DNA of 48,864 bases, taken from positions 1 to 48,864 of the IMG/VR virus record IMGVR_UViG_3300028802_000023; one strand, written 5' to 3'. The position numbers and the translations under genes are program-made. Positions 120 to 46,105 of this stretch are shown here, in pieces. The DNA comes from a virus. Under the pieces are notes generated by a model. The model saw only the letters and a list, made by a program, of their open reading frames with translations, ran no database searches and was not told the origin of the DNA. Position 1 is the stretch's first letter. Each line of letters opens with the position of its first letter.

Positions 120-2012
120 ATGCGAACCGTCGTCTTGGACTTTGAAACCTACTACGACAAAGAGTTCTCGCTCAAGAAGATGACTCCGGTGGAGTACATC
201 CTTGATCCACGCTACGAGACAATCCTTTGTGCCATATCGGAACCGTGGGCGTCTGTCGCACAGCCGACACAAATTATAGACGGCGAGGATTTTACTTCGT
301 GGGTAACTAACGCAGGGTTGGAGGATGCCTGCGTCGTTTCTCATAACGCTTTGTTCGATATGTGCATTTTGTCTTGGCGCTACGGCATACGCCCTCGCCT
401 GATGGTTGATACTTTGGGAGTAAGCCGCGCCCTCTTAGCTCATAAGCTGAAGTACATGAGTCTAGCCAAGGTTGCGGATCATCTGGGGATAGGAATTAAA
501 GGTAGTGAAGTCGCCAACGTCATCGGAATGTCACGCGACGAGATCAAGCGCTCTGGACGCTGGGCAAGTTACGGGCAATATTCAGCTAACGACGCTGAAC
601 TCTGTGCCGGGATCTACGATAAGCTTGTAAGAAGCGGGTTATTTCCGGTTCGGGAAATAGCGGTAATGGATATGGTTCTGCGCTGCGCCACAGAGCCGAA
701 ATTTGTTCTGGATCAAAATGCCATTGCAGAACATCTGGCAGACGTACAACGGAGCAAACTGGAGCTGCTGGCCAGCGCTATGCTTTGCGGTGCCCAGAAC
801 GGTAAGAGCGACCTCATGTCCAATGAGAAGTTCGCCGAGATTCTTCGCAGCTTGGGTGTCGAGCCGCCCAAAAAACTTTCAAGAACAACGGGGCTATGGA
901 CTTATGCGTTCGCAAAGACGGACAAGGAATTCATCACGTTGGAGGAGCATCCGGACCCTGCTGTACAGGTTCTGGTCGCCGCGCGAACGGGTCACAAGAG
1001 CACGCTTGAGGAGAGCCGGTCGCAGAGGCTGCTCAACATAGCCAATCTTACTTGGCCGGGTAACTCGCAGGGGTTGATGCCGGTCCCGCTTAGATATGGC
1101 GGCGCGCACACCGGCCGCCTCAGTGGCGACTGGAAGTTGAACATGCAGAACCTCCCGCGCGGGGGAGCGTTGCGTCGCGCACTCATCGCACCGGCAGGTC
1201 ACACGGTTGTTACAGTTGATGCTTCGCAGATTGAAGCGCGTATCGTGGCGTGGGTCTGCGGACAAGACGATCTGGTCAAGGATTTTGCCGACGGCATCGA
1301 CGTCTACGCCAAGTTCGCTTCCGAGATTTTCGGTTACCTCGTAGGTAAGAAAACCCATCCCAATGAACGCTTCATGGGCAAGACGGCGATCTTGGGGCTG
1401 GGTTACCAAGTCGGCGCGACCAAATTCCAGAACACCATCGAAGTACAAAGCCAGCTTCAGCTTGGCCAGAAGATTGCCATGACAATGGACGACGCATTCA
1501 ACGTCGTCGATTTCTACCGGAAGAAATATCACAAGATCTCTTCCAAGTGGAAGAACCTGCAGAACGTCGGCATGGCTACGCTGACGGGCGGGCGAGCCAA
1601 GTACACGCTGGGACCGTGTGAATTTGAACACCACGCCATCCGGTTACCTAACGGGTTAAAGCTGCACTACCACAATCTGTTCTTCAGGGACGAACTAACG
1701 GAATTCGGCAGGGGTCAGTGGACGTTCGAATACGCCGAAGAACGCAAGAGCCTCTACGGTGGCAAGATCCTTGAGAACTGCGTGCAAGCCCTTGCCCGCA
1801 TCCATACCATGGATGCCGCCCTGCGCATCCGCAAGCAGCTCCCGCTCGCCATGCAGGTGCATGACGAACTGGTCTACGTCGTCCCCGACGCAGACGTCGT
1901 TAATGTTAAGCAACTGCTGCACGGCGAGATGTGCCGACCCCCGTCATGGGCCTATGATTTGCCGCTCGCGGCCGACGTCGGTACCGGGGAAAACTACGGG
2001 GAAGCAAAATAA
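120..2012 (+). CDS. DNA polymerase I-type replicative polymerase with 3'-5' exonuclease
   Basis: Family A DNA polymerase of the T7-like phage type, 630 residues, expected to replicate the phage genome. The N-terminal DEDD exonuclease starts immediately: Exo I has D7 and E9 in LDFETYY, Exo II is HNALFD, and Exo III is YSANDAEL. The polymerase domain shows motif A VDASQIE (D367), motif B starting at K421 with YQVG, and motif C HDE at 581-583. ATG 120 is preferred over the in-frame ATG at 78 because AAGGA lies 10 nt upstream of 120, nothing suitable precedes 78, and the exonuclease fold begins at residue 2. It is the first gene of the early operon. No thioredoxin-binding insertion was recognised. 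Confidence 0.95.
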   Translation: MRTVVLDFETYYDKEFSLKKMTPVEYILDPRYETILCAISEPWASVAQPTQIIDGEDFTSWVTNAGLEDACVVSHNALFDMCILSWRYGIRPRLMVDTLGVSRALLAHKLKYMSLAKVADHLGIGIKGSEVANVIGMSRDEIKRSGRWASYGQYSANDAELCAGIYDKLVRSGLFPVREIAVMDMVLRCATEPKFVLDQNAIAEHLADVQRSKLELLASAMLCGAQNGKSDLMSNEKFAEILRSLGVEPPKKLSRTTGLWTYAFAKTDKEFITLEEHPDPAVQVLVAARTGHKSTLEESRSQRLLNIANLTWPGNSQGLMPVPLRYGGAHTGRLSGDWKLNMQNLPRGGALRRALIAPAGHTVVTVDASQIEARIVAWVCGQDDLVKDFADGIDVYAKFASEIFGYLVGKKTHPNERFMGKTAILGLGYQVGATKFQNTIEVQSQLQLGQKIAMTMDDAFNVVDFYRKKYHKISSKWKNLQNVGMATLTGGRAKYTLGPCEFEHHAIRLPNGLKLHYHNLFFRDELTEFGRGQWTFEYAEERKSLYGGKILENCVQALARIHTMDAALRIRKQLPLAMQVHDELVYVVPDADVVNVKQLLHGEMCRPPSWAYDLPLAADVGTGENYGEAK

Positions 2013-2124
2013 CCCTTTACTTTAAAGTAACTTTCGAGTAACCTTCGAAGTTACTAATGTAGTGCAGAGCACAGCATGTTCTGTGCTTTGCGGTGCATTA
2101 CGCACCTAGCTAGGAGCAACTATA
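2013..2124 (+). promoter_or_regulatory. Intergenic region with repeat half-sites and two hairpins
   Basis: This 112-bp gap after polA holds a perfect 14-bp palindrome (2017-2030), two direct AGTAAC half-sites (2026-2031, 2037-2042) and the inverted partner GTTACT (2050-2055). A hairpin follows with stem AGCACAG/CTGTGCT, extendable to 11 bp with one G-T pair, and then a small GGTGC/GCACC hairpin. It is the densest cluster of the genome-wide GTTAC repeat and lies just before the PEP-CTERM gene. A regulatory or terminator role is inferred. I see no clear sigma-70 promoter. Confidence 0.4.
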
Positions 2125-2763
2125 ATGAGACGCTTACTATTAGCGACTACTGTCTTACTCACATTATCTACTGCGGCCTTTGCCGACGTAGTCATTACAA
2201 CTGATCCAAACATTGCAGTGATTGCTGGTACGGATGGATTGCTGGAGACCAAGTTGTTTCTGGTTGCAGCCGACAACGTCACGGCGTTCAACGCCAATTT
2301 CGGCAGTCAGAACGGCACGCCGCAGTTCAACTTCACCACCACCGGCATCGTCGACGTGGCTAACGGCTTCTCCACCGTCAGCCCTGAAGTCAGGGGTACT
2401 TTTACCAGCCTGACGATTAACGCTCCGACCAACTATACTTTCCAAGACTTCAACTTCTCGATCCTGCAGGCTCCCGATTTTATGGTTACGGCGTCCAATG
2501 GCGGCGTCGTCCATGTCTCCGGTGCGCCAAACGGTAACTTCGACTGGACGGCGTTCACGCTGAACGCTGCCGGGTTAACCTCGATCACCATCACCGCTGA
2601 AGGCGACGGCTTCTTCAAGGAGATGAAGCAGTTCCAGATCAGCGGCTTAGAACAGGTGGCGGCAGTACCAGAAGCTTCAACATGGGCAATGCTCCTGCTG
2701 GGCTTCGCTGGCATTGGCGCGATGGGCATGAAGCAATCGGGTCGCAAGTTCCGGTTCGCATAA
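2125..2763 (+). CDS. PEP-CTERM sorting-signal surface protein (phage-carried)
   Basis: A 212-residue secreted protein. Residues 1-20 are a classic signal peptide (basic start, Leu-rich core, AFA cleavage site before D21). The body is Asn/Thr/Gly-rich and looks beta-structured. The C-terminus has the three PEP-CTERM parts: VPEASTWAM, a hydrophobic segment LLLGFAGIGAMGM, and a basic tail ending RKFRFA. In hosts with exosortase and exopolysaccharide systems such proteins are processed and displayed at the surface. The motif reads PEA rather than PEP, a tolerated variant in my judgement. AGGAG at 2112-2116 gives an 8-nt spacing. Nothing else in the neighbourhood concerns surfaces, so it looks like acquired cargo. 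Possible roles are masking the receptor, superinfection exclusion or altering host aggregation; all three are inference. Confidence 0.85.
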   Translation: MRRLLLATTVLLTLSTAAFADVVITTDPNIAVIAGTDGLLETKLFLVAADNVTAFNANFGSQNGTPQFNFTTTGIVDVANGFSTVSPEVRGTFTSLTINAPTNYTFQDFNFSILQAPDFMVTASNGGVVHVSGAPNGNFDWTAFTLNAAGLTSITITAEGDGFFKEMKQFQISGLEQVAAVPEASTWAMLLLGFAGIGAMGMKQSGRKFRFA

Positions 2764-2782: not shown

Positions 2783-2887
2783 ATGCCGACCACGATGCCA
2801 TTACTCCAGTTAGTAGTATTAATGGCGCTGGTCTGCGTCGTCTCTTTCGGAATCGGTCATTTTGTTGCGTGGTGGACAGACCGCTAA
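2783..2887 (+). CDS. 34-residue single-span membrane protein
   Basis: This small gene starts at ATG 2783 after GGGAG (2771-2775) and stops at 2885-2887, sharing one base with the next ATG (TAATG). Residues 7-31 form one hydrophobic span that ends in the aromatic pair AWW, with a charged TDR tail. Its place between the PEP-CTERM gene and the regulator suggests an early membrane function, but no family is recognised. The clean ribosome-binding site and coupled stop/start support it being real. Confidence 0.6.
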   Translation: MPTTMPLLQLVVLMALVCVVSFGIGHFVAWWTDR

Positions 2888-3216
2888 TGGGCGACAATGA
2901 CGAAATTGCCGCCCTGCGGGCGCGGCTTCGCGCTCTTGAAGGTGCCGTCGAGTACAGCAGCACCAGACTCGGCGATGTGTTTCAGCTTCCGCCGATGCTG
3001 AGTAACCTCATGAGGTTACTTTTGGCAGTGCCAACCGTAACCAATGTGATGGTTCGTAAAATTACAGGCCAGCCCAAGGCCGCGATATCGCGCCTGCGCA
3101 GGCACATGAAAAAGCATAAGATACATATCTATTCGAGGCGCTATGTCGGTTACTGGATCGAGGACAAGGACAAGGCGCGTATTCGCGCCTACGTAGAAGC
3201 AAAGGAAGCGTCATGA
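2887..3216 (+). CDS. Winged-helix DNA-binding protein (OmpR C-terminal-like)
   Basis: A 109-residue protein. The start at 2887 overlaps the stop of the small membrane gene (TAATG) and is preferred over the upstream in-frame ATG at 2869. After a short helix with Leu/Arg heptads (about 7-19), residues 40-105 resemble the winged-helix fold of OmpR/PhoB effector domains: a helix-rich core, the basic recognition region SRLRRHMKKHK, then a beta-wing with SRRYVGYWI. There is no receiver domain. The gene contains a perfect 20-bp palindrome (3001-3020) related to the repeats scattered through this genome, which makes the protein the leading candidate for binding them. That link is inference. It overlaps the next gene by ATGA. 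Confidence 0.75.
   Translation: MGDNDEIAALRARLRALEGAVEYSSTRLGDVFQLPPMLSNLMRLLLAVPTVTNVMVRKITGQPKAAISRLRRHMKKHKIHIYSRRYVGYWIEDKDKARIRAYVEAKEAS
3001..3020. repeat. Perfect 20-bp palindrome of the GTTAC family
   Basis: AGTAACCTCATGAGGTTACT is identical to its own reverse complement. It lies inside the winged-helix gene and encodes SNLMRL there. The arms are the outward-facing version of the GTTAC half-site used in the dispersed repeats. It is a candidate autoregulatory operator. Confidence 0.8.
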
Positions 3217-3613: not shown

Positions 3614-4356
3614 GTATCACAACCTCATATGGCGGCGGCACCTACGCCCCCAAGCCGAAGCCGTTCGCTTGGTCTTATTCAAAGCTGAAAAACTTCGAAG
3701 TGTGCCCCAAGCGGCACTACAACGTGGATGTTATAAAAGCGTTCAAGGATGAAGAAGGCGAGGCGCTGCAGTGGGGCAACGCCGTCCATAAAGCGCTGGC
3801 CAATCGTTGCGGCAAGGGCAGGGTGCCGCTGCCGCATCCAATGGCGGGTTACGAGAAATGGGCGGAGCGGGTTACTTCGCCGGGTAAGACCATCCCGGTG
3901 CCAACGATACTGGTCGAGCAGCAGCTCGCCATTGACGAAAACTTCGCACCTACCAAATGGTTCGCCAACGACGCCAAGCGGGCGGGGATGGGAGAGCCGT
4001 GGTACCGGGGCATCGCCGACGTACTCAAAATAAAAGACAAGGGCGCGCTGGCGATAGACTGGAAGACGGGGAAGGTCATCGATGATGCGCCGCAACTGGC
4101 TCTATTGGCGGCATGCATCTTCGCGCATTACCCCGACGTAGAGAGGGTTCGCAGTGAGTTCATCTGGCTCAAGGAAGACGCGAGCACGCGCCAAGACTTC
4201 GACCGGGATCAAATGGCTGACATCTGGAAGGGCCTCTGGCCAAGAATTGAAGCGCTCAAGCTCGCTCATGAAACACTTAATTACCCCGCCAAGCCGGGCT
4301 TCCTCTGCCGACGATATTGTCCAGTTACAACATGCCCTCACCACGGCGAAGAATAA
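3610..4356 (+). CDS. Cas4/RecB-like PD-(D/E)XK exonuclease with 4-Cys cluster
   Basis: A 248-residue nuclease of the PDDEXK_1 (Cas4/RecB) type. It starts with the family signature SYSKLKNFEVCPKRHY, then GNAVH (H60), the catalytic run with D137 (YRGIADVLK), D150 and K152 (IDWKTGK) and motif QLALLA (Q162). Cysteines C32, C233, C237 and C242 form the pattern that binds a 4Fe-4S cluster in Cas4 and AddB relatives. It likely resects or processes DNA ends during replication and recombination, or degrades host DNA. There is no CRISPR array or other cas gene in the window, so a CRISPR role is not indicated. The start is coupled by ATGA to the gene before, with GAGGGC as ribosome-binding site. Confidence 0.9.
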   Translation: MSITTSYGGGTYAPKPKPFAWSYSKLKNFEVCPKRHYNVDVIKAFKDEEGEALQWGNAVHKALANRCGKGRVPLPHPMAGYEKWAERVTSPGKTIPVPTILVEQQLAIDENFAPTKWFANDAKRAGMGEPWYRGIADVLKIKDKGALAIDWKTGKVIDDAPQLALLAACIFAHYPDVERVRSEFIWLKEDASTRQDFDRDQMADIWKGLWPRIEALKLAHETLNYPAKPGFLCRRYCPVTTCPHHGEE

Positions 4357-4370: not shown

Positions 4371-4982
4371 ATGGTCAGGAAGGGCAAGAGCACCGAGTGG
4401 GCCGTCAAGCAGGCGGTCAACAAGGTGCTTGCGAGTTACCCCGAAAGTTACTGGTTCATGCCGGTGCCCTACGGCTACGGCAAGAGCACGCTGGACTATC
4501 TGATTTGTCACTACGGTTTGTTTATCGGCATCGAGACCAAAGCGCCGGGGGAAGTACCCACAGCCCGCCAGCGCCAAATCATGAAAGAGATCGAGAACGC
4601 TGGCGGCGAGGCGTTCGTCATCGACGGCGTCGATAAGTGCCACGCCTTGAGAGTTTTTCTGGAACAGGTGAAGCAAAATGCTGCCAGTCAAAGTAAGCCC
4701 CAGACACAAGGTGGTGGGGGTTCCACACGCGGAGAACATAGCCAATCTATTTCCAGCAGCGAAGTCGATGGATTTCGGACAAGTACCGCATATCATTCTA
4801 CCGCACCAACCGACCGAGACGTATCTGTTGCGCAAGATGGGCTACGACGTACCAAGCCCTATCCTGACGCATTACGACTGGAGAGGGGGGTCGCCGTTCG
4901 TAAGCCAAAGATCGACGTCGGCACTACTCACCCTAGAACAACGGGCGTACGTCCTGAATGGGATGGGGACGGGGAAAACTAA
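4371..4982 (+). CDS. VRR-NUC domain nuclease
   Basis: A 203-residue protein whose first 100 residues are a VRR-NUC PD-(D/E)XK nuclease: D42 in KSTLDYL, E55 and K57 in GIETK, Q67 in ARQRQ, then GGEAFVIDG. These nucleases cut branched or Holliday-type DNA and are often paired with a helicase, as here. ATG 4371 is chosen; a TTG at 4317 and an ATG at 4332 are in frame but lack a ribosome-binding site and would overlap the upstream gene further. The last 100 or so residues, after VFLEQVKQ, are Ser/Gly/Arg-rich and lie opposite another frame of the helicase gene for 305 bp. They look like non-homologous read-through rather than a domain. Confidence 0.85.
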   Translation: MVRKGKSTEWAVKQAVNKVLASYPESYWFMPVPYGYGKSTLDYLICHYGLFIGIETKAPGEVPTARQRQIMKEIENAGGEAFVIDGVDKCHALRVFLEQVKQNAASQSKPQTQGGGGSTRGEHSQSISSSEVDGFRTSTAYHSTAPTDRDVSVAQDGLRRTKPYPDALRLERGVAVRKPKIDVGTTHPRTTGVRPEWDGDGEN

Positions 4983-6243
4983 AGCTGCATTGTGGGCGTT
5001 CGATTACCTCAGAAGTAACGGCATCTGCGGCAAGATGCTGGTCAGCGCCCCCTTAAGTACGCTCACATTCACTTGGGCGAAGGAGATCTTCGCCACCGTA
5101 CCGCATTTGAAATACGCGGTGCTGCATGGAAGCCGCGCCAAAAGATTAGAGTTGCTGGACACCGACGTCGATATCTTCATCATCAATCACGACGGTCATA
5201 AAGTCATCCTTAACGAGCTGATGGTCCGCAAGGACATCAACGTGCTCGTCATCGACGAGCTTGCCGTCTTCAGGAATGGGCAGTCATCGCGCCACAAGAC
5301 CATGAAGCGCTTGGCTGATCGGATGGACTGGGTGTGGGGCATGACCGGCAGTCCAATACCCACATCACCAACGGATGCATGGGCGCAAGCGCGACTGGTC
5401 ACGCCACAGCGGGTGCCGAAGTACTTCTCCCGGTTCCGCGAAGATCTGATGGTGAAAACCAGCCCCTTCAAATGGGTGCCCAAGGCCGATGCCGTTGAAA
5501 AAGCATTCGCGGCGATGCAGCCATCGGTACGCTTTACGCTGGATGATGTTGTCGAATTACCCCCATTGATCGAGCGTTACGTTGACGTTGAACTGGGGCC
5601 GCAGCAGGAGAAGATATACAAAGCGCTGATGGCGCAGTGCTATGTCGCCGTGCAGAACCACGAGATCACCGCAGCCAACGCGGGGGCCGTGATGATGAAA
5701 CTTCTGCAGGTGTCCACCGGCTGGGTGTACTCACGCACGCGGGACATCGTTACACTTGATAACAATAACCGCATCCAAGCTTTGATGGATGCCATCGAGA
5801 GCACCGACCGCAAGGTTCTGGTGTTTGCACCCTTCAAGCACGCATTGGGAGGGATATCGGAAGCACTTACTTCGGAAGGTTACGAGCATGCAACAGTGGA
5901 CGGAGACACCCCTGCCAGCGACCGTGCGAAAATTTTTAACCTATTTCAGAACACTGATCGATATCGCGTTATACTGGCTCATCCTCAATGTCTTGCGCAT
6001 GGGATTACGCTTACCGCTGCCGATACTGTTATTTGGTTCGCGCCTGTCATGTCTCTGGAAATCTATGATCAGGCCAATCACCGTATTCGTCGTGTGGGTC
6101 AGGCGCACAAGCAACTGATACTTCATTTGCAATCGACACCGATTGAGAAAAAGATTTACAGAATGCTTCAGACAAAACAAAAGATCCAAGACAAGCTGCT
6201 GAAGCTGTTTGAGGAGGACACGGACTCTAACCCACAGAGGTAA
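4678..6243 (+). CDS. SNF2/DEAD-type superfamily 2 helicase
   Basis: A 521-residue SF2 ATPase of the kind found beside phage polymerases. Walker A GTGKT is at 97-101, motif II VIDELA (D193, E194), motif III MTGSP near 222, and the C-terminal helicase lobe ends with motif VI QANHRIRRVGQ. The N-terminal region with HYDWRG and FVSQR leads into the ATPase and looks genuine, which supports ATG 4678 with AGGTG 7 nt upstream even though this start lies deep inside the nuclease frame. It probably remodels or unwinds DNA for replication or recombination. The stop is followed by GAGGTAAC, which serves the next gene and matches half of the dispersed repeat. Confidence 0.92.
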   Translation: MLPVKVSPRHKVVGVPHAENIANLFPAAKSMDFGQVPHIILPHQPTETYLLRKMGYDVPSPILTHYDWRGGSPFVSQRSTSALLTLEQRAYVLNGMGTGKTKAALWAFDYLRSNGICGKMLVSAPLSTLTFTWAKEIFATVPHLKYAVLHGSRAKRLELLDTDVDIFIINHDGHKVILNELMVRKDINVLVIDELAVFRNGQSSRHKTMKRLADRMDWVWGMTGSPIPTSPTDAWAQARLVTPQRVPKYFSRFREDLMVKTSPFKWVPKADAVEKAFAAMQPSVRFTLDDVVELPPLIERYVDVELGPQQEKIYKALMAQCYVAVQNHEITAANAGAVMMKLLQVSTGWVYSRTRDIVTLDNNNRIQALMDAIESTDRKVLVFAPFKHALGGISEALTSEGYEHATVDGDTPASDRAKIFNLFQNTDRYRVILAHPQCLAHGITLTAADTVIWFAPVMSLEIYDQANHRIRRVGQAHKQLILHLQSTPIEKKIYRMLQTKQKIQDKLLKLFEEDTDSNPQR

Positions 6244-6246
6244 CTT

Positions 6247-7491
6247 ATGAACAAAAGGAATAAGAGACGCGCCCGATATTATCGGGATAAACCACCAGCC
6301 GATCTGGAAGTCGGGCTGCAGGATAATAGCCCTGAGTCAATACAACAGGCATTCGACGTACTGGCGGAAGCAGAAAAATCAGGCGTCACTACTATCGTCA
6401 AGACATATAAGTCATCGCATCCGGACGGCGCAAACTTCCACCACTACAATGACATCCGTACAGAGCGAAGGGACGGCCCCGACCATAACGTAGCAAGTAT
6501 GCTGTTGAACGCGGCAAAAGCTAAAACTCCGCCGCTAATGCTGGACGACCGCCCGATCATCGACCAGTTGCACGAAGCGACGTTCACCCATCCGCTGGGG
6601 ATGTACGCCATCGGTGACGACTATGCGTTGCGCATGCTTCTTCGCAAGGCGCATTGCTTCACGCTGGACGAAGCGACGTCGTCTATGGTGGCAGACTTTT
6701 CAATGGCGACTACCGTTGATCTGGAAGCAGCACGACGGCTGGCGATTCCGCCGTTCGACGTGACGTGGATTGAACTGAACAACCATGCACGCCTCAAGCG
6801 CATGTTTGAACTCAAAGCCCCGTTGGGGACGTACGACCCGAAAGAACCACCGACCTCGCGTATTGGCTGGCTGATCCACCCCGCGACAGAACTTGGCGGC
6901 TGGTACGCCACCTATGTTTCCGTGATCGACGTTGGCGTCTGGATCGCACCACTGTCCTACTGGTGGCATTCCGGATCACCAAACCCGAAAGGCATGGTGC
7001 CCACTGACAAAGTCGCCAAGCTCATAGAGTGGTTACTGTTCGGCACTGCAGGCAACGTCTTTGGTGAGGATGCTCACATGCATGCATCCAACCTGCATGT
7101 TCCTATTCAAGTGCTCGACGTTGGCGACACCAAGGACATCATGGCGGAAATGGCGGGCGAGCTGCGTCACATCTGGGGGTTCCTGATCGCGCTCGCTGCC
7201 GGACAGAACGGCGTCAAGCTTACTTCGCAAAGTAACCCGACCCGCGCACCGCCGATCATGAAAAACGGCAAACCGCTATTGCCACTTGAACACAAAGTGC
7301 TTCACTTGCATTTGCGGAAAGCCCCGCAAAAACTGATCTCGCAAGCGATCACGCACCATCACAACCGCCAGCACGACGTCCGGGCGCATTGGCGGACACT
7401 TAAATCGGGCAAGCGCGTGCCGATCAAGTCGCATCAGCGTGGCGATGTAAAGCTGGGGCGGATCGAGAAGACCTATCACGTAGAGAGGTAG
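6247..7491 (+). CDS. Conserved-looking phage protein, function unknown
   Basis: A 414-residue soluble protein between the helicase and the winged-helix fusion gene. GAGGT 6 nt before ATG supports the start. It begins with a very basic stretch (KRNKRRARYYR), has a mixed alpha/beta middle, and ends in a His/Arg-rich region with VRAHWR and a closing RGD..G.I.K.Y motif that I associate with unassigned phage replication-region proteins. I recognise no catalytic motif. The basic ends and its position in the replication operon suggest nucleic-acid contact; this is inference. Confidence 0.75.
   Translation: MNKRNKRRARYYRDKPPADLEVGLQDNSPESIQQAFDVLAEAEKSGVTTIVKTYKSSHPDGANFHHYNDIRTERRDGPDHNVASMLLNAAKAKTPPLMLDDRPIIDQLHEATFTHPLGMYAIGDDYALRMLLRKAHCFTLDEATSSMVADFSMATTVDLEAARRLAIPPFDVTWIELNNHARLKRMFELKAPLGTYDPKEPPTSRIGWLIHPATELGGWYATYVSVIDVGVWIAPLSYWWHSGSPNPKGMVPTDKVAKLIEWLLFGTAGNVFGEDAHMHASNLHVPIQVLDVGDTKDIMAEMAGELRHIWGFLIALAAGQNGVKLTSQSNPTRAPPIMKNGKPLLPLEHKVLHLHLRKAPQKLISQAITHHHNRQHDVRAHWRTLKSGKRVPIKSHQRGDVKLGRIEKTYHVER
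7220..7235. repeat. Variant palindrome with 6-bp arms
   Basis: TTACTT-CGCA-AAGTAA, within the unknown 414-residue gene, encoding LTSQSN. Confidence 0.65.
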
Positions 7492-8250: not shown

Positions 8251-9295
8251 GATGCTTCCCCCCACATTTGGTCCTGTCTCGTCGGTATTCGGCAGCGACG
8301 ATACGGGCGACAGGTTGAACTCAGGCATCACCGCTGGTTATCCGATCCTCCGCATCAAGGGTAAGGTCTGGTCCATTACCCGTGGAGGTAACGAGCCGTT
8401 CGTGCTGATGCGGCCCGACGGCGACGGCCCGCGCAATTCGATCGATGTGGTATTGCTGTCGTCGTCAAAGTACGTCTCGAAGCTGTGGTACGAAAACGGT
8501 TACGAGGAAGGCAACACCAACCCGCCTGACTGTTTCGCACCCAACGGCATCGTGCCGGATGCTTCGTCAACCAAGAAGCAGCATGCTACCTGCGCCGGGT
8601 GCCCGCAGAACACATGGGGTTCGGCAATCAGCGCTTCAGGCAAAAAAGCGAAAGCCTGCCGGGACAGCAAGCGTGTGGCCGTTTCGCCACTCGGCGATAT
8701 CCGCAATGAAGCGTTTGGCGGTCCCATGTTGCTGCGGGTGCCCGCAGCATCGTTGTCCGACGTCGGGAACTACGGCATTGCCATGAAGGCGCGCGGCTAC
8801 GACTACTGGACCGTCGGCACCAAAATGTCGTTTGACTCGGCGGAAGCCTATCCGAAGCTGGTGCTGGAGCCGATCCGGCCGCTGACCGACGATGAAGCTG
8901 TCGCCGTATTGGAGCTGCGTGAGTCACCTGCAATTGCCGCGATTTTGGCGGAGGGAACTGACGTCATGCAGGAAGCGCCGGTTGAACCGGCGATCAAGCT
9001 GCCGCCTTCGTTCCCTCAACCTGCTGCTGTTACCCCACAGGTAACTGCTCCTCCGCCGTCCAAGCCAACGCTCGTTACCCCAGTGATGGGGGGTAATGGG
9101 TTTGGTGGGCCTGAACCGGCTGCGCCGCCTTCGAAGACAAGCCCGAAGGCAGTGAAGAAGGTTCAGGCCGCAGCGCCGCCGCCAGCGCCAACGCCTCCTA
9201 AGCCCCCAGTTCAGGAGGAAGCGGCAATGGCGGCGGCCGGTAGCTTTGAGGACACTCTGGACGCTCAAATAGAAGACTTGCTGCCGGGAGCATAA
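8243..9295 (+). CDS. Candidate phage ssDNA-binding protein
   Basis: A 350-residue protein. Residues 1-235 form a globular domain with a Cys cluster C119-x2-C122 (CAGCPQNTWGS) and a third Cys in ACRDSKR, suitable for zinc or a structural site. Residues 240-330 are a Pro/Ala-rich flexible linker. The extreme C-terminus is acidic and amphipathic (FEDTLDAQIEDLLPG), the arrangement seen in phage and bacterial SSBs where the tail recruits partners. Its place directly before the primase-helicase fits. The SSB call is inferred from architecture and context rather than a recognised OB-fold motif. AGGAG lies upstream of ATG 8243. The linker carries one dispersed repeat (9029-9045). Confidence 0.65.
   Translation: MTKMLPPTFGPVSSVFGSDDTGDRLNSGITAGYPILRIKGKVWSITRGGNEPFVLMRPDGDGPRNSIDVVLLSSSKYVSKLWYENGYEEGNTNPPDCFAPNGIVPDASSTKKQHATCAGCPQNTWGSAISASGKKAKACRDSKRVAVSPLGDIRNEAFGGPMLLRVPAASLSDVGNYGIAMKARGYDYWTVGTKMSFDSAEAYPKLVLEPIRPLTDDEAVAVLELRESPAIAAILAEGTDVMQEAPVEPAIKLPPSFPQPAAVTPQVTAPPPSKPTLVTPVMGGNGFGGPEPAAPPSKTSPKAVKKVQAAAPPPAPTPPKPPVQEEAAMAAAGSFEDTLDAQIEDLLPGA
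9029..9045. repeat. Dispersed 17-bp palindrome
   Basis: GTTAC-CCCACAG-GTAAC. It encodes VTPQVT in the linker of the candidate ssDNA-binding protein. Confidence 0.8.
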
Positions 9296-9302
9296 GACTA
9301 CT

Positions 9303-9325
9303 GGGGGGCGGGAAACCGTCCCCCC
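9303..9325 (+). promoter_or_regulatory. Strong GAAA-capped hairpin before the primase gene
   Basis: Six G (9303-9308) plus CGG pair with CCG and six C (9320-9325) around a GAAA tetraloop, with one bulged T. The 52-bp gap contains little else apart from GGAAGG before ATG 9348. There is no U tract, so it is probably an attenuator, mRNA stabiliser or processing site rather than a full terminator. Confidence 0.5.
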
Positions 9326-9347
9326 TTCCACCCACGGAAGGTAAACA

Positions 9348-13223: not shown

Positions 13224-13562
13224 ATGCAGATCAGAAACGGCCCAGTGTTTCAGGCAGGACAATTCCTCTCTGATGCTTTCAGTCTCGCGCAACTAGATCC
13301 GTACTTTCTTATTACACCGGATGCATGGACCGCACCCGCGAACCTGCGCTTCATGTTCTCGCCGGATGGCTTAACCTACAATGTAGTCCACTATGACGGG
13401 GTTCCGCTGGAAGTGCTATGCCCCGCGCCGAATGCTGCGGTCAAGCTACGGCCGGAAATGAGGACATGGCCTAACGGCACCTATCTTAAATTCTTGTCCG
13501 CCTATAATGATTCCAAGATTATCCAGCCCGTGCTGCGTACATTCAAACTGGTCGCAGCTTAG
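13224..13562 (+). CDS. Tandem paralogue B, beta-rich protein of unknown function
   Basis: A 112-residue protein with AGGGGAA before ATG 13224. It matches the upstream gene in motif order and spacing: GPVF, AG, PDAWTAPANLRFMFSPDG, C-APNAA, TWPNGTYLKF and RTFKLV. It is the last gene of the rightward early operon. Its stop TAG shares bases with the stop of the convergent late operon, leaving no room for a terminator between them. Confidence 0.65.
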   Translation: MQIRNGPVFQAGQFLSDAFSLAQLDPYFLITPDAWTAPANLRFMFSPDGLTYNVVHYDGVPLEVLCPAPNAAVKLRPEMRTWPNGTYLKFLSAYNDSKIIQPVLRTFKLVAA

Positions 13563-13840
13563 GGGCGCGAACCTTTATTACGTTCCCAGCCGCGATTGTG
13601 CTTTTTGGTTTCGACCCGCAAGTTACTTCGGGAGTTACTCCCGCCTGAGATCACCGACTTCTTGTGACCGACGTCTTTCCCGGCAATGGCGGCATCCCCC
13701 AGATCCTTGCGCACGATGGCGCGGGCTTGGTTCTGCTGCGAACGGTTCTTGATGATATGCGGCTGTGAATTGTACCCCCTGTCCATTTTTTTGATTTGCG
13801 CGGGTGTGCGGTGCGATGACGGATCGCGAGTGCCAGCCAT
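13559..13840 (-). CDS. HNH-like phage protein
   Basis: A 93-residue basic protein. The C-terminal half reads GKDVGHKKSVISGGSNSRSNLRV...HNRGW, the order of an HNH nuclease core (H of GHKK, N of SNLR, final H/N of HNR) as found in small phage proteins of this type. The usual acidic residue before the first His is Gly here, so activity is doubtful. It is the last gene of the leftward late operon, and its stop overlaps the early operon stop (13559-13562). The GSNSRSN part is encoded by a direct-arm copy of the dispersed repeat (13622-13638). Confidence 0.6.
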   Translation of the reverse strand: MAGTRDPSSHRTPAQIKKMDRGYNSQPHIIKNRSQQNQARAIVRKDLGDAAIAGKDVGHKKSVISGGSNSRSNLRVETKKHNRGWERNKGSRP

Positions 13841-14128: not shown

Positions 14129-14143
14129 GGTTACCTCCCGAGG

Positions 14144-14542
14144 TTACTTGGCTTTCTTCTTGCGACGCTTCGCAACCCTGTCGGTTACTTTCTTCGCGGT
14201 CTTCTTGACGGAGGCCGCCTGCTTCTTGACAGCCGCTACGCGCTTCTTGGCTTTCGCCACGCGCTTCTTGGCCTTCGGAATGCCTCTAGGCATGTCGTCT
14301 ACCTCTTGTTGCTCACGATCTTCCTGATCGTGCTCAACACCCTTATCATCCATGTCTTCCTGCATCAACGCGGGTGGCGGTATGGCGTGGACCATTGCCA
14401 TGTACGCATTGGCTTCTTCCTGCTCGACAAATCGAGCACGCTCGATACCCGTCGCATCGCGAATCACATAAGACGTCGATGCAGTAGACTGATCGATTTC
14501 CATAGTGACTGGTTTGTCTTCGTCCTTGATGGTTGTCGGCAT
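14144..14542 (-). CDS. Late protein with acidic middle and histone H1-like basic tail
   Basis: A 132-residue protein in three parts. Residues 22-52 hold YVIRDATGIERARFVEQEEA, matching the 55-residue protein encoded just upstream. Residues 60-85 are strongly acidic (EDMDD, EHDQEDREQQEVDD). The last 45 residues are nearly all Lys, Ala and Val in a repeating KK-x-AK pattern ending KRRKKKAK. The tail resembles bacterial histone H1-like proteins and should bind DNA or RNA. It could condense DNA in the capsid or coat the injected genome; both are inference. ATG overlaps the previous stop (TAATG). Confidence 0.65.
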   Translation of the reverse strand: MPTTIKDEDKPVTMEIDQSTASTSYVIRDATGIERARFVEQEEANAYMAMVHAIPPPALMQEDMDDKGVEHDQEDREQQEVDDMPRGIPKAKKRVAKAKKRVAAVKKQAASVKKTAKKVTDRVAKRRKKKAK

Positions 14543-33845: not shown

Positions 33846-34138
33846 TACGGAGCCTTCACCGTGTACTGGACTGTATCTTCTTTAATCTGTCCGCCACTCG
33901 TTGTCATGGTCGCGATAGCCTTGTAGGATTTTCCATCGAGTCCAGCCGACGCATAGAACACAACGCTTTTATTGCCAGTTTCGATAGCGATTCCGTTGAT
34001 GACGATAGGGCTGGCATCGATGGGAGTTACTTCGAAAGTAACATTGGAAAGTTGCTCCCCGGTGTCGAGCCAGTCAGTGTAGTCAATCGAGTAGCGTTTT
34101 CGCTCGTCGGGTGACTTGAAGTATTTTCCCAAATTCAT
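33845..34138 (-). CDS. Small fibre-tail adaptor-like protein
   Basis: A 97-residue beta-rich protein. The opening SPDERKRYSIDYTDWLDTGE followed by an Ig-like strand pattern (NVTFEVTPID, VVFYASAGLDGKSYKAIATMTTSGG) matches small proteins described as phage fibre-tail adaptors. Both neighbours are fibre-type genes and it overlaps both by one to four bases. The dispersed repeat at 34026-34042 encodes its VTFEVT. Confidence 0.65.
   Translation of the reverse strand: MNLGKYFKSPDERKRYSIDYTDWLDTGEQLSNVTFEVTPIDASPIVINGIAIETGNKSVVFYASAGLDGKSYKAIATMTTSGGQIKEDTVQYTVKAP
34026..34042. repeat. Dispersed 17-bp palindrome
   Basis: GTTACTT-CGA-AAGTAAC, arms of 7 bp. It encodes VTFEVT in the fibre-tail adaptor-like gene. 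Confidence 0.8.
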
Positions 34139-39085: not shown

Positions 39086-39694
39086 TTATCTCCGTCGTGA
39101 ACGTGTTGAGAACTGCTGCGGGAACATCCACGCCTGCGCATTGTGGACATTACGATGAAGGCTCTCGGTGCCTGCAATCGATATCGTCCTGCGAAACGCC
39201 ATCAGATGCGCCGCCGCCAGTTGCGTATTGGTGTAAGGCTTGGCGGGCTGCGCCATCATCCGCCCCAGCACGCCGTCGAGAATGCCCATACCGTACTTGG
39301 TCAGTATCCATTCCGGAAACTCGGGGTAGCCGTCGCGCTGCGTCGGATCGACAATGCTCAACGCGACATTCGCCATGAACGTGCCCGCCTGACTGGGCGG
39401 CGTGTCCAGAGTTACTTCACCGGGTAACTGCATCGACGCCCGCTGCCGGAAGTCACTCTCGTCGAGCACGCTGAACAGTCGTACGATGGTCGAGACGCTT
39501 TCCGGCTCGATGTAGTAGACCGTCCCTGCGGGGTCCGCCGCATTCACCGAAAACGGGATCTCCTCGGTCCAGATGCTGGAGTCCTTGAAGAACTGGTCCA
39601 GCACGTTGTACAGCTCCAGCAGGATCACATTGTCGAGCGACCCCGGCAGCGAGGTACGAGCATTCTTGATCAGGCGTTCGGTTGCATAGCTCAT
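39086..39694 (-). CDS. Tail tubular/neck protein candidate
   Basis: A 202-residue protein of helical N-terminus (ERLIKNARTSLPGSLDNVILLELYNVLDQFFKD), a beta middle (VYYIEPESVSTIVRLFSV) and a C-terminal helix region (RTISIAGTESLHRNVHNAQAW). Size and position after the adaptor suggest a neck or tail tubular A-like protein. Its EVTLDTP is encoded by the dispersed repeat at 39411-39428. Start overlaps the adaptor stop by 4 nt. Confidence 0.65.
   Translation of the reverse strand: MSYATERLIKNARTSLPGSLDNVILLELYNVLDQFFKDSSIWTEEIPFSVNAADPAGTVYYIEPESVSTIVRLFSVLDESDFRQRASMQLPGEVTLDTPPSQAGTFMANVALSIVDPTQRDGYPEFPEWILTKYGMGILDGVLGRMMAQPAKPYTNTQLAAAHLMAFRRTISIAGTESLHRNVHNAQAWMFPQQFSTRSRRR
39411..39428. repeat. 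Dispersed palindrome, N8 spacing
   Basis: GTTAC-TTCACCGG-GTAAC, two arms of 5 bp. The minus strand encodes LPGEVT, another frame from most copies. Confidence 0.75.
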
Positions 39695-41126: not shown

Positions 41127-42158
41127 TTATCGGATACGCCCCTCTCGTTCCGCATCGAAGATCATGGCTTCGAGACGGCCCTTCTCTGCCTCACGTCCCC
41201 GGTATTTGCCCGAAGCCGAGTCGGCATAGAACTGCGAGATCTGGGCGCGGGTGATAATCGGCTTCTCAGCAGGGGCGAGGGTCGCCGCTGAAGTCTTGGC
41301 TCTGCCCGGTGCAGCTAAGTCTTCCAGCGAGAGCTTGCCGTTTTCGACAGGCTGTGACTGTTGACCCTGCGGGACGAAGGCAGCCTCTTGATCAAGGAAG
41401 CCTTTGAAGAAGGCGAGCACACGGGGAGTGTTGTTCTGCGCGTATGCCGTCCTCAACAACTCATGTCTAATAGCACCGGAATACATATCCGGCAACGCCA
41501 ACCACGCATGGAAGTCCGGTAACACGTTGATATCGCGCCAGTGTGGAATGCGCTGATCGAGCGCTGACTCCAGCTCGAACCGCGCCTTGGCGTTGTTCTG
41601 TTCGGCAGTGGTCGAGAGCTGCTTCTCCAGATTGATCAGCTTCTGCCGCAACGCGGCGACTTCGGGTGTGAGTTCTTCCTTAGCCTTCTTGGCGACCACG
41701 CTGAGAAACTCACTGCCGTATTCAGAGACTTCTTCCGGTGTGAGTAAGCTCTGTGGACGTAGTTCTGCCGGTGTTTCGCTTGATGGTTTCTGCATTGACG
41801 CCAGCAGGCTCTGCATCGACGCAAGCTGGCTGCTCATGGAATGGATATCGCCTTCGGCGCGTTTGTATCGTCCTTCCATTGATTTGTATCGACGCTCCCA
41901 GCTCTCCTCGGAGACCTGTTCAGGCGGCGTTACCTGTGGGGTAACTTCCGGGGGCGGCGCGAACGACGGCGCAGCACCGGGGGGATCGGCTGGCGGCAGG
42001 GTTTCAGGCGGGGCTTCGGATGGTGCAGCACCGGGGGATTCTTGCGGCGGCTGCCCGCTTTGGGCACGGAACGCGGCATCGGCTTGCGCCGCCATTTTCC
42101 GTACGGCCGGGGGAATGAAGGTGTTGGGGTCGTCTTTGACTTGCGTCTTCGGGGCCAT
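41127..42158 (-). CDS. Scaffolding protein candidate
   Basis: A 343-residue protein. The first 95 residues are Pro/Ala/Glu-rich and disordered (VTPQVTPPEQ is encoded by the dispersed repeat at 41929-41945). Residues 95-215 form a long coiled coil (YKSMEGRYKRAEGDIHSMSSQLASM, LRQKLINLEKQL). The rest is charged, with a basic, helical C-terminus, as needed for coat contact. GGAGG precedes ATG 42158. Lies directly upstream of the coat gene, where phage scaffolds are normally found. Confidence 0.8.
   Translation of the reverse strand: MAPKTQVKDDPNTFIPPAVRKMAAQADAAFRAQSGQPPQESPGAAPSEAPPETLPPADPPGAAPSFAPPPEVTPQVTPPEQVSEESWERRYKSMEGRYKRAEGDIHSMSSQLASMQSLLASMQKPSSETPAELRPQSLLTPEEVSEYGSEFLSVVAKKAKEELTPEVAALRQKLINLEKQLSTTAEQNNAKARFELESALDQRIPHWRDINVLPDFHAWLALPDMYSGAIRHELLRTAYAQNNTPRVLAFFKGFLDQEAAFVPQGQQSQPVENGKLSLEDLAAPGRAKTSAATLAPAEKPIITRAQISQFYADSASGKYRGREAEKGRLEAMIFDAEREGRIR
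41929..41945. repeat. Dispersed 17-bp palindrome
   Basis: GTTAC-CTGTGGG-GTAAC. It encodes VTPQVT in the disordered N-terminus of the scaffold candidate, the same residues as the copy at 9029-9045 in the ssDNA-binding candidate. Confidence 0.8.
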
Positions 42159-43397: not shown

Positions 43398-45491
43398 CTA
43401 TCCTGCACCACCTTGGATGCTGTTGGTACGTGGACCCATATCGCCGTTCATCGGCGACCCCTGTTGCGCGCCCTGTGCCTGCGCCGCCTGCTGCTGCATC
43501 GCCTGCGCCTGCATCTCCTGCTGCTTCTTCTTGAGGTCGTCTTCCGACGGCACGACGTTCTCGCCGGGAATGCCGATGCTTTCAGACACCTTGCGCAACA
43601 CGACCGCACGTCCTTCCGGACCCATGATGCCCATGTCGATGGGGTTGGCGGTAGCCTGCAGGAACTCGATCTGGCGCGAGCGTTCAGTTTCACGCTGAAT
43701 GGCTACACTAACGCCCTTGACGCGAATTGATTCTTCGCCCGTCAGCATGCCGCTTTGATCCGTCAGCATGATCATGTCGAACAAATTCGACAACAACCCC
43801 TGAAACACGTCACGGTCGACGTTGGCGGCAACCGTTTGCAGTATTTTCGAAGCGTTGCCCATCAGCATCGCTAATCCGCTGGCCGTCCTGCCAGCGCCGC
43901 CCGACGCACCCCCCGACAGATACTTGGGGATAGCTGACAGTTCGTCCGCAAGATCGGAGAACTTTTGATACGTTTGAAGTAGCTCGCCCGCGTTGGAGTT
44001 GGGCTGGAAGAAATCGATGGGTTTTTGCGCCGACGAATTGTTGCCCATCGGATCGGACGTGACCCGCCAGCGCTTCCACGGGTAGAGATCTTCACCATCT
44101 TCATCGGGCGACAGACGGTCGGTATTGACGACGACTTGAGGACCGGAAGAAATGGATAGATTGTTGACCAAGGCGCGAAGCGTTGCATTGCAGACTTCCT
44201 GAATATCACTCAAGATATCCGGCAACCCGTTACCAACCGGGGTACCGGGTACTTTTTCGAAACTGGTGATAAAGTAGGGGTGCCTTTTGCGGGGGCTTGG
44301 GGAGAGCTGCACCTTGATGACGTGGCGTCCGATCACCCACGCCTGCACGAAGTAGTCCCGCAGTTCGTCCGGCACCTGCTTCTTGCTCATGCCGTACTCG
44401 CGCAACATGCGTCCTTGGACGTTGCCATGGTACTCGATACATGAAATCAACCCCGACCGGTTCATGTTGGGATTTTCACGCGACTCCTGATTGGCGCGTT
44501 CGGCATCGGTGGTGTCCCAGTCCTCGTTGAGACCCCCTCTGCCGTACTCGTCGAGCACGGCGCGAATTTCCTCGACGTTGTAGCCGGGCAAATCCAACAG
44601 ATCATTGAGGTCCGCACGCGAGACGCGCGTACGTTCGATGACGGCGGCGTCCTCGATATCGGCACAGCCCGGCGTCCACCACAGATCGAACGGCGACTTG
44701 CGCTCCCAGAACAGGCGCGGCTTCTGGGTGATGGTCGCCGTACCATTCTTCCAGTCCACCGCAGGGACGATCTTGACAATCGGCCCCTTGATGCAGGCAA
44801 ACGGAAACATCGGCAGGTCGACCAAGAACGCCGCCAGCGCCTCGTAGAATTTTCCTTCGGATAAAATTTCGTCGATCTTGTCTTCGGCCACCAAGGCTTG
44901 CTTGGCGGCACGCTTCTTCGCCGCTTGCCGCGCGGCTTCCATCAACGAGAAAGTCCTGTCACGTATCGACGTCGCGTCTATCGGCTGTCCCGCCTGCGCC
45001 TGCGTCTGCGCTTCGACGCCGACGAGCTGAGAGATGGCTGCGACGATCTCGGGAGGTACATCCGGATCGTCAGGGGGTTCAAGTCCCCAAGGCCGTTCGT
45101 TTGACAGGTAGACGTCGCGGAGCAGGGAGGAAGCGCCACGACATTTCATGGAAATCAAGCGAGCGTAGACTTCAGAGCCGCCGAACTGTTTTATTTCCTG
45201 TATTTTCGTCGCGTCGTATTGCCCGTTGAACACGCGCAGGCAACTGAGGAGACGCTCGCTCCAACCGGCAGACGAGTTGTTGCGATGCTGCTTGAATGTT
45301 TCGAACTCGGTCCGGATAAAGCCAGCGAGCGACGTCAGGACGACGTCGTCCAATGGCTTCGCCGCTTGGGCTTTCTGTTCGTCGGCGAGCTTGATGGCGG
45401 CATTGAGCTGCGCAGGCGGCACCACCCGCAGCACGCCACGCCCGCCAAAATTACTGTTCCCCTGAAAAGGTCCGATAGCTCCAACAGGCAT
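43398..45491 (-). CDS. Portal protein
   Basis: A 697-residue portal of podovirus-type phages, forming the ring through which DNA enters and leaves the head. It opens with VGAIGPFQGN, followed by a helix-rich wing region (WSERLLSCLRVFNGQYD), clip/stem features (ARLISMKCRGASSLLRDVYLSNERPW), the core with DLPMFPFACIKGPIV and SPFDLWWTPG, the region NGLPDILSDIQEVCNATLRALVNN and a Gln/Ala-rich coiled C-terminus (QQEMQAQAMQQQAAQAQGAQQ) like the barrel of P22 portal. It is the first gene of the leftward operon, diverging from the terminase. Confidence 0.9.
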   Translation of the reverse strand: MPVGAIGPFQGNSNFGGRGVLRVVPPAQLNAAIKLADEQKAQAAKPLDDVVLTSLAGFIRTEFETFKQHRNNSSAGWSERLLSCLRVFNGQYDATKIQEIKQFGGSEVYARLISMKCRGASSLLRDVYLSNERPWGLEPPDDPDVPPEIVAAISQLVGVEAQTQAQAGQPIDATSIRDRTFSLMEAARQAAKKRAAKQALVAEDKIDEILSEGKFYEALAAFLVDLPMFPFACIKGPIVKIVPAVDWKNGTATITQKPRLFWERKSPFDLWWTPGCADIEDAAVIERTRVSRADLNDLLDLPGYNVEEIRAVLDEYGRGGLNEDWDTTDAERANQESRENPNMNRSGLISCIEYHGNVQGRMLREYGMSKKQVPDELRDYFVQAWVIGRHVIKVQLSPSPRKRHPYFITSFEKVPGTPVGNGLPDILSDIQEVCNATLRALVNNLSISSGPQVVVNTDRLSPDEDGEDLYPWKRWRVTSDPMGNNSSAQKPIDFFQPNSNAGELLQTYQKFSDLADELSAIPKYLSGGASGGAGRTASGLAMLMGNASKILQTVAANVDRDVFQGLLSNLFDMIMLTDQSGMLTGEESIRVKGVSVAIQRETERSRQIEFLQATANPIDMGIMGPEGRAVVLRKVSESIGIPGENVVPSEDDLKKKQQEMQAQAMQQQAAQAQGAQQGSPMNGDMGPRTNSIQGGAG

Positions 45492-45556
45492 ATCTATGTC
45501 GCTCTTGCGATCATTTGGGACTACATATCCCGTGAGGCAAACTACCGGGTGCCACC
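45492..45556. promoter_or_regulatory. Divergent control region between portal and terminase genes
   Basis: This 65-bp gap separates the start of the long leftward late operon from the rightward terminase genes, so promoters for both should lie here or within the flanking genes. It has no GTTAC palindrome. No convincing sigma-70 elements with proper spacing are visible, so promoter recognition could need a phage or host activator. Location-based call. Confidence 0.4.
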
Positions 45557-46105
45557 ATGGATGCAGTCACAAGCCCAAGCAACAGCGATCTGACGATGAT
45601 CAAACTGGCGCGCGAAATCGCGATGGACATTCAGCCGCTGCCAGAAATATTCAAACAATATGCAATCACCGACGAAACATGGGCTGAGTTACAACGAAAC
45701 ACAAAATTCCAGATGCTGCTCGCGACCGAAGTCGAGGCGTGGCAGACCGCATTAAATACCCACGAGCGGGTAAAGATGAAGTCGGCATCGATGCTGGAAG
45801 AGTGGCTGCCGACGCTGTACCGCCGCATGAGCGATGACGAAGAGGCGCTCCCGGCAACCATCGAAGCCGGAAAAATGCTGGCGCGGATCGCCGGACTCGG
45901 CATGCCCACCGACATAAGTGGCGCGATTGGCGAGCGTTTCGTGATCAACATTTCAATGGGACCTCAAGCTACGCCCGTCGAATTTACCAAGGACGTAACG
46001 CCGGTGCCGAAGATCATCGACAACGAAGTTACTTCCGGAGGTAACGCGCCAAGCGCGTCCAAAGAAGCGCGTGCAAACGCGCAGCGTTGGGGAGACATGA
46101 AATGA
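45557..46105 (+). CDS. Terminase small subunit candidate
   Basis: A 182-residue protein just before the large terminase gene. It is helical with an N-terminal HTH-like region (LAREIAMDIQPLPEIFKQYAITDETWAELQRN), a long central helix with an acidic/basic mix (VKMKSASMLEEWLPTLYRRMSDDEEALPATIEAGKMLARIAG), as needed for oligomer formation, and a short disordered tail with EVTSGGN from the dispersed repeat. No strong ribosome-binding site precedes ATG 45557. It should recognise the packaging site. The stop overlaps the next ATG. Confidence 0.75.
   Translation: MDAVTSPSNSDLTMIKLAREIAMDIQPLPEIFKQYAITDETWAELQRNTKFQMLLATEVEAWQTALNTHERVKMKSASMLEEWLPTLYRRMSDDEEALPATIEAGKMLARIAGLGMPTDISGAIGERFVINISMGPQATPVEFTKDVTPVPKIIDNEVTSGGNAPSASKEARANAQRWGDMK
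46028..46045. repeat. Dispersed palindrome, N8 spacing
   Basis: GTTAC-TTCCGGAG-GTAAC, palindromic except for one base pair. It encodes EVTSGGN near the end of the small terminase gene. Confidence 0.8.

Follow-up and report, generated by a model that had tools for sequence, protein, structure and literature searches.

The IMG/VR virus record IMGVR_UViG_3300028802_000023 comprises 48,864 bases, and this entire stretch, referred to here as the window, carries a palindrome, GTTAC-N7-GTAAC, that recurs throughout its length. Thirty open reading frames (ORFs) of the window were scanned against PHROG, with matches to a DNA polymerase, an exonuclease, a helicase, a primase/helicase, and a 2436-amino-acid (aa) protein, as well as to an internal virion protein, an endolysin, the major head protein, a portal/head-tail adaptor, and a terminase. 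The nearest cultured relatives of the window phage are the Rhizobium phages RHph_TM27A (MN988461; hereafter TM27A), TM27B, TM29, and TM3_14A, with which it shares 47% identity in the primase, 49% in polA, and 68% in the major capsid protein (MCP), while the Pseudomonas phages KPP25 and Rollin are distant relatives that serve as outgroups. Comparison with the closest record, G001 (61,965 bases), shows that approximately 12 kb, early region included, are missing from the window. The annotation of TM27A names no feature corresponding to the palindrome, and among open-licence PubMed Central (PMC) full texts no paper was found to describe the motif by its title or the start of its abstract. Here, we describe a computational analysis of these sites, their distribution in the phage family, and the proteins that may bind them.

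The exact sequence GTTAC-N7-GTAAC is present nine times in the window, whereas dinucleotide shuffles contain a mean of 0.03 copies and none of 100 reaches nine; allowing one mismatch, there are 18 copies versus 0.61 expected. Paired GTTAC and GTAAC sequences occur at spacings of 7 (nine pairs), 8 (two), and 17 (one), the rest of the range from -2 to 30 being empty, and the commonest perfect five-base gapped palindrome in the window, over gaps of 0 to 20, is GTTAC with a gap of 7. A matrix derived from the relatives identifies 34 window sites at a score of 12 or more; the reversed sequence contains three, and ten triplet shuffles average 0.3 (maximum 1). The N7 form corresponds to a gap of 5 between GTTACC and GGTAAC arms, and the N8 form to a gap of 6. 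An earlier, sequence-only reading of the window had reported the nine N7 copies and two N8 copies at 39411 and 46028, and each of these lies where it was placed; the C or T that it described at the beginning of the N7 core, and the G or A at its end, are found in nine of nine copies. The seven near copies that it listed also exist, those at 1047 and 3871 with the same start, those given as 1334, 7220, 8376, and 10210 starting one base earlier (1333, 7219, 8375, and 10209), and that given as 3001 starting one base later (3002). Its count of copies was too low, and the matrix sites that it had missed include those at 291, 4435, 5003, 13622, 14130, 15287, 16187, and 26905. As it had stated, sites lie within genes on both strands; some also lie outside genes.

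The exact N7 sites (matrix scores in parentheses) are located at 9029-9045 (23.8), 10050-10066 (20.2), 11656-11672 (23.4), 31028-31044 (23.4), 34026-34042 (20.4), and 41929-41945 (23.8), with three more inside the gene encoding the 2436-aa protein at 17534-17550 (22.9), 19881-19897 (20.0), and 21297-21313 (23.4). This gene contains a further site at 16187-16203 (20.6), and an N7-form site coincides with its stop codon at 15287-15303 (17.4). Other N7-form sites are found at 291-307 (17.1), 1333-1349 (21.7), 1643-1659 (13.8), 4435-4451 (18.8), 5003-5019 (20.6), 13622-13638 (16.4), and 26905-26921 (20.7). The two exact N8 sites, at 39411-39428 (19.3) and 46028-46045 (23.6), are accompanied by N8-form sites at 1047-1064 (15.1), 3871-3888 (17.0), 5866-5883 (15.4), 7219-7236 (15.7), 8375-8392 (21.6), 10209-10226 (22.3), 24089-24106 (16.3), 26507-26524 (16.4), 44229-44246 (15.3), and 48839-48856 (13.9), by one at the stop codon of an ORF ending at 6243 (6227-6244; 15.6), and by one at a gene junction (14130-14147; 23.3). 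A GTAAC..GTTAC variant is present between ORFs at 2038-2054 (16.1) and, in N8 form, inside a winged-helix ORF at 3002-3019 (16.4).

Relatives were gathered by means of the primase (13 loci) and the capsid protein (the best 80 of 598), yielding 93 loci that total 1.04 Mb. At up to two mismatches, GTTACC-N5/6-GGTAAC occurs 588 times in these loci versus 95 times in the reversed sequences, at densities that differ among loci; one of 7.5 kb (L049) contains no site. By the same measure, 15 family records hold 28 to 100 sites each and their reversed controls 2 to 12: 34 in the window, 48 in G001, 35 in G006, 44 in G007, 37 in G008, 73 in G011, 100 in G016, 28 in G017, 59 in G004, 31 in G012, 38 in G015, 59 in G018, 36 in G019, 65 in G020, and 64 in TM27A. 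Exact copies are few in G012, which carries the motif in degenerate form. The outgroups KPP25 and Rollin show no excess, with three sites each versus four in the reversed control. Among the 15 loci from bacterial assemblies, two from Bradyrhizobium hold five and nine sites (control, none in each), and the 13 that are more distant (L148-L160, capsids 44-58% identical) have no excess.

Carriage of the motif was also followed outside these loci. One exact long form drew at least 119 viral contig stretches, 80 of which (L164-L243) were scored. The seven stretches longer than 2 kb that hold at least five sites per 10 kb all carry family proteins. Three shorter than 1.6 kb reach this density with the matched site alone, and family proteins are present in one of them (L240) and absent from the other two (L232 and L204). 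Three or four sites are found in each of L194, L241, and L211; those of L194 and L211 are confined to approximately 160 and 270 bp, and those of L241 sit in a gene whose product is 29-32% identical to a family protein. G021, considered as an unrelated carrier of the motif, proved to be a full family member. The palindrome is a trait of this phage family. As a separate observation, a contig of a Betaproteobacteria metagenome-assembled genome from a more distant relative (L151) contains another dispersed palindrome, CTAC-N-GTAG, ten times in 17 kb versus 0.14 expected, which is perhaps an analogous system with a different consensus.

The base profile over 333 strict sites is symmetric, (G)TTACCYC..GRGGTAA(C), its strongest bases being (G)TTACCY..RGGTAA(C), and beyond the outer G each flanking position holds only about 0.01-0.07 bit, with no T-run. 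When inward-facing arms with up to one mismatch each were paired over the pooled 15 records, gaps of 5 and 6 yielded 178 and 415 pairs, and the remaining gaps between 0 and 25 yielded 5 to 26 each, compared with 6 to 26 throughout in the reversed control. The balance of the two forms differs among members, with exact N7/N8 counts of 9/2 in the window, 8/20 in TM27A, and 5/25 in G016. Direct repeats with gaps of 6 and 7 (99 and 115) and outward pairs with gaps of 7 and 8 (44 and 36) likewise exceed background; these peaks are probably the same sites, scored again with one arm out of register by one base, because GGTAACC contains GTAACC, which is one mismatch from GTTACC. Enrichment at gaps of 5 and 6 alone is what a protein dimer bound to duplex DNA would impose, and does not suit a hairpin with a free loop size. 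The palindrome can fold in a transcript, where it might act in processing, stability, or termination, but this restriction to two gaps, the location of sites within genes, and the lack of a flanking T-run make RNA-level hairpins a highly improbable explanation. Intrinsic terminators, in which a GC-rich stem precedes a T-run in intergenic DNA, are distinguished by the absence of any flanking signal around the 333 strict sites and by the intragenic sites, and in Aeromonas phage MQM1 the terminator-like palindromes differ likewise in their flanking runs. MQM1 (L161) itself contains 13 near-identical CGGACA-N2-TGTCCG palindromes with A- and T-runs on their flanks; 11 lie between annotated genes, and the set reads as uniform bidirectional terminators.

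Site counts at up to one mismatch were compared with those in 60 synonymous codon shuffles that preserved the codon pool, a control that the sequence-only reading had proposed. In 34 window ORFs (40.1 kb) 13 sites were observed and the shuffles contained a mean of 0.88 (maximum 3); in all 90 annotated coding sequences (CDS) of TM27A the corresponding numbers were 35, 2.3, and 5. Since codon shuffling abolishes the excess, selection acts on the DNA. In codon alignments, seven of nine window sites are retained in G001 and eight of ten in the reverse direction, as are five of five G007 sites in G008 and six of six in reverse. Loss of the palindrome by synonymous change with the residues kept, which had been named beforehand as evidence against selection on the nucleic acid, was seen for a single one of the nine window sites compared with G001. 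Some sites survive a change of residues, as at 1333-1349, which is retained in G001 (GYLVGK/SYPVSK), and one survives in a different frame after moving by a single base (VTFEVT/LPYEVI in TM27A and G016). In the two close pairs, identity is 0.91 and 0.95 in the arms versus 0.77 and 0.68 in the cores, and third positions of codons specifying the same residue are identical in 0.80 (28/35) and 0.88 (15/17) of cases in the arms versus 0.56 and 0.67 elsewhere; the difference is smaller in the pair G007-G030 (8/11 in the arms versus 0.63). Both the codon shuffles and the better conservation of arms than of cores in close relatives support the proposal that selection acts on the nucleic acid.

Sites are spaced along the whole phage genome at a mean of roughly one per 0.6-2.0 kb, with approximately twofold higher density in the early region (1.46 versus 0.70 per kb in TM27A, 1.13 versus 0.52 in the window). 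They also avoid one another. When the sites of 16 records were redistributed within 4-kb bins, with overlaps merged (300 runs), 35.5 gaps shorter than 150 bp were expected among sites with up to one mismatch (minimum 20) and 8 were observed; with up to two mismatches, 96.7 were expected (minimum 71) and 32 observed. The coefficient of variation (CV) of the gaps is below random at P<=0.0002 in seven of 15 records (G016, G004, G015, G018, G019, G020, and TM27A), and less strongly so in G011 (P 0.02), G017 (0.01), and the window (0.05). The largest gap in G016 is 1492 bp. In TM27A, 40 of 64 sites lie wholly within a CDS, and 20 of 64 site centres are intergenic versus 6.0 expected; at a distance of up to 20 bp, 20 sites neighbour a stop codon and 15 a start codon, where 3.9 are expected in each case. 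One 6.9-kb gene holds six sites, whereas three other genes longer than 1.7 kb contain none. The right arm contains TAA, so that a site can provide a stop codon. Among the 40 intragenic TM27A sites, mismatches fall 16 times in the upstream arm and 17 times in the downstream arm, and the sites thus have no orientation with respect to transcription.

This layout bears on several explanations. Short palindromes often serve as targets of restriction-modification or homing enzymes, and the sequence-only reading had suggested a mobile mini-palindrome. Restriction targets, however, are expected to be avoided rather than enriched, the sites share no flank homology and avoid one another, and the methyltransferase gene of TM27A (21005) has relatives in fewer than four of 17 genomes. 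With no repeat unit, shared flank, or other signal past the arms, the mobile element is rejected, and we consider this group of explanations the least probable of those weighed. The ParB/parS partition system, in which parS sites cluster near parA/parB, differs in that the present sites are dispersed and anti-clustered; no ParA or ParB was seen among the proteins scanned, which did not include every ORF.

Phages of this family are present in two Bradyrhizobium isolate assemblies, SA-3 (8.7 Mb) and sp. 139 (7.9 Mb). In SA-3, the phage contig (C42) holds five of six strict N8-form and four of six N7-form matches, and in sp. 139 two phage-carrying contigs hold nine of nine N8-form and two of four N7-form matches, giving 20 of 25 strict matches in phage-carrying contigs over 16.6 Mb. 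Outside these contigs the N8-form searches of SA-3 and sp. 139 returned 1 and 0 matches (backward-read controls 4 and 7), and the N7-form searches 2 and 2 (controls 5 and 3). In these two assemblies, the motif is confined to phage DNA and is at background level elsewhere. The sites might alternatively be bound by a host protein, such as a regulator or a nucleoid-occlusion or segregation factor, put to use or titrated by the phage; phages sharing the motif may have hosts that share such a factor, but the scarcity of matches outside the phage contigs of the two Bradyrhizobium assemblies, below the backward-read controls, leads us to regard a host protein as unlikely.

The sp. 139 phage reads as an integrated prophage split over two contigs. 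Contig C166 carries early genes up to the primase at 23,036, followed by a gene for a 576-aa serine recombinase (C166 23,435-25,165; L291 3435-5162, with L290 and L292-L295) that matches Pfam Resolvase, Recombinase, and Zn_ribbon_recom, and contig C111 carries late genes from approximately 29 kb onward. A 17-bp repeat found at the end of the recombinase gene (C166:25,142) occurs again at C111:25,004. If these repeats are attachment sites, the prophage, in which the order of the contigs is inferred, would be approximately 61.2 kb long, matching the size of its relatives. The palindromes halt near the prophage borders, with no site in C111 1-28,004 or in C166 23,948-40,000. The prophage and its serine recombinase indicate that at least one family member can lysogenise.

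Candidates for a binding protein were sought with profile searches of 69 of the 90 TM27A proteins against 17 genomes. Present in all ten near-complete family genomes, and not in KPP25 or Rollin, are a 242-aa protein (18372 in TM27A), a 76-aa protein (26298), an ATPase (26629), and a VWA/DUF2201 protein (28817); the same distribution is seen for a 257-aa protein (30500, weak in G004), for the product of a gene that we call gene B (46863), and for an 80-aa protein of the structural region (7909). Because the motif-rich stretches prove to be family members, co-occurrence with the motif does not single out the 242-aa protein among the genes shared by the whole family. Its gene (TM27A 18372-19100) belongs to the early region and is absent from the window. 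A palindrome lies between -160 and +15 of its inferred start in nine of ten genomes in which tblastn located the gene, against a background of 0.15, a result that counts as a lead, as it is the best of 25 genes and the genomes are not independent. Of the 24 others, a 113-aa structural-region gene has such a site in 11 of 16 genomes and the 76-aa gene in four of six, and the rest have one in at most half. An AlphaFold2 model of the 242-aa protein is all-helical (mean predicted local distance difference test score, pLDDT, 82.8; predicted template modelling score, pTM, 0.58), with a last helix of 49 residues whose end is of low confidence. No recognised DNA-binding domain is present, neither Foldseek nor VIA-align identified a clear match in the PDB, and the two matches with E<0.001 in BFVD are both of no known function. 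With this protein as query, tblastn returned four Rhizobium phage records and no plasmid records, and a single-protein search returned its own record alone. Judged from its distribution and upstream site, this all-helical early protein is the best candidate binder, as a lead.

Two other proteins are less suited to this role. A winged-helix protein had been suggested as a binder, and an ORF of the window at 2869..3216 on the plus strand, gene A, fits that description (PHROG 1687, MarR-like, E 2e-4); its structural model shows a winged helix with a mean pLDDT of 81.6, for which the nearest structures are ST1889 (Z 8.8, root-mean-square deviation 3.0, 88 aligned), TrmBL2, and OmpR/PhoB-type domains, and these Z values may reflect the common fold only. 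Gene A is absent, by profile search and gene order, from two motif-rich relatives, G004 (59 sites) and G015 (38 sites); it was rejected as the general binder and is a candidate that the motif does not require. Gene B (13559..13840 on the minus strand of the window) encodes a 93-aa basic protein without a Pfam hit, which we take to be HNH-like from its motif. As an exact tracker of the motif it was rejected when a deeper profile search found it in G012, and, being family-wide, it does not discriminate as a binder.

Dispersed repressor sites of two temperate phages offer the nearest comparison. The stoperators of L5 and D29 (24 sites in L5, GGTGGMTGTCAAG), at which binding of the immunity repressor downregulates transcription, are asymmetric, 13 bp long, predominantly intergenic, and in one orientation (PMC5712189). 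The present sites resemble them in their many copies genome-wide, in the position kept between close relatives, and in the preference for gene junctions, and differ in being palindromic with two spacings, mostly intragenic, and as many as 100 at up to two mismatches; they depart from the L5 class in two tested features, intergenic predominance and single orientation. The C1 repressor of phage P1 has 22 dispersed operators that are 17 bp long and asymmetric (PMC8546580); the present sites are likewise dispersed and similar in length, but symmetric and more numerous, any link to a repressor or to lysogeny being putative.

From the resemblance to P1 C1 operators and L5 stoperators, the junction preference, and the prophage, we give about an even chance to the proposal that the palindromes are sites of a phage-encoded, sequence-specific, probably dimeric protein that controls phage transcription genome-wide. 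Such a dimer would bind GTTACC-N5/6-GGTAAC duplex sites, would be encoded by the phage family, and would regulate its own gene; once bound, it would act on phage transcription across the whole genome, the sites serving as dispersed operators or roadblocks. What binding does is the least certain part of this proposal. The stoperator-like role put forward by the sequence-only reading is the leading mechanism, at this same even chance, for sites that are unlike L5 stoperators in being palindromic and mostly inside genes.

Several observations weigh against dispersed operators, among them the two reservations given above about the 242-aa protein, namely its lack of a recognised DNA-binding domain and the selection of its upstream site from 25 genes. 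Distant pairs of genomes retain only 7/15, 6/20, 2/7, 1/8, and 2/18 sites, where chance predicts 0.003-0.005 each, and third-position conservation is gone in the distant pair G016-TM27A (arms 21/40, or 0.53, versus 0.49); between distant relatives, the positions of sites turn over and their number stays. Six TM27A sites occupy one 6.9-kb gene, beyond the need of silencing. Gap CV is no different from random in G001, G006, G007, and G008 and above random in G012. A tblastn search of the other family genomes and loci detected no recombinase homologue, other integrase types not having been searched for, and several genomes without a homologue carry more sites, so that lysogeny alone is a poor account of the role of the sites. 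Their self-avoidance, their placement inside genes, and the many members without a recombinase homologue favour a role in genome architecture or self-marking.

In such a role, the binder would be a sequence-guided chromatin-like or bridging protein of lytic growth with little direct control of transcription, serving in compaction, in segregation, or in labelling phage DNA as self so that phage nucleases spare it. MatP/matS, Noc/NBS, and SlmA are comparable in that a DNA-organising protein has palindromic sites across a replicon, within genes as well; they belong to host chromosomes, their consensus sequences differ, and no homologue was recognised here. Coverage of the whole genome, the avoidance of close pairs, the short largest gap of G016, the spread of sites through the single 6.9-kb gene, and the highest site counts in members without a detected recombinase homologue all accord with architecture. 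Against it, the junction preference, with 20 of 64 sites near stop codons, and the site that is conserved in front of one early gene look regulatory, several records are no more regular than random, and no known nucleoid protein was recognised among the proteins scanned. We consider architecture a possible but tentative reading, and slightly more tentatively suggest that a phage-encoded organising protein, loaded about once per kb, could form a scaffold that marks lytic or integrated phage DNA as self versus host.

Additional features were noted in these genomes. At 48115-48702 on the minus strand, the window encodes a GIY-YIG nuclease domain, after which comes a helix-turn-helix-like region. 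Predicted exported proteins ending in a PEPxxWA-CTERM-like sorting tail are encoded beside the polymerase gene, at 2125-2763 on the plus strand of the window and at 8819-9634 and 9780-10328 of L096 (NF035944, E 2e-5, 2e-6, and 1e-4, all under the curated cut-off); phage-encoded PEP-CTERM proteins would be unusual. The word CCWGG is found 0 times in the window, 0 in G001, 1 in G016, and 3 in TM27A, versus 137-231 for CCSGG, and 135 times in the Bradyrhizobium phage G007; the window also lacks GGCGCC, CAGCTG, CCGCGG, CCCGGG, ACGCGT, and GGATCC, and these missing words look like host-dependent restriction avoidance. Seven short early proteins of TM27A (L095 21659-25035) share an AMLLG-type start region and match the same relatives, constituting an expanded paralogue family. 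Near polA (L135, L110, and L094), small early proteins of different members share the C-terminal tail FPSDxLxxKLMLL, which occurs in 14 frames in nine of 21 sequence sets (one in the reversed-motif control).

Dispersed operators are known from few temperate phages, L5 and P1 being examples, and the podovirus-like family described here, which occurs in many metagenomes, carries 28-100 copies of its palindrome through and between its genes, maintained at a cost in codon choice. The palindrome also constitutes a computed marker by which family members can be spotted in metagenomes. Whether the sites serve silencing, self-marking, or packing of the phage genome is testable with the cultured phage RHph_TM27A and with the natural border of the Bradyrhizobium prophage.

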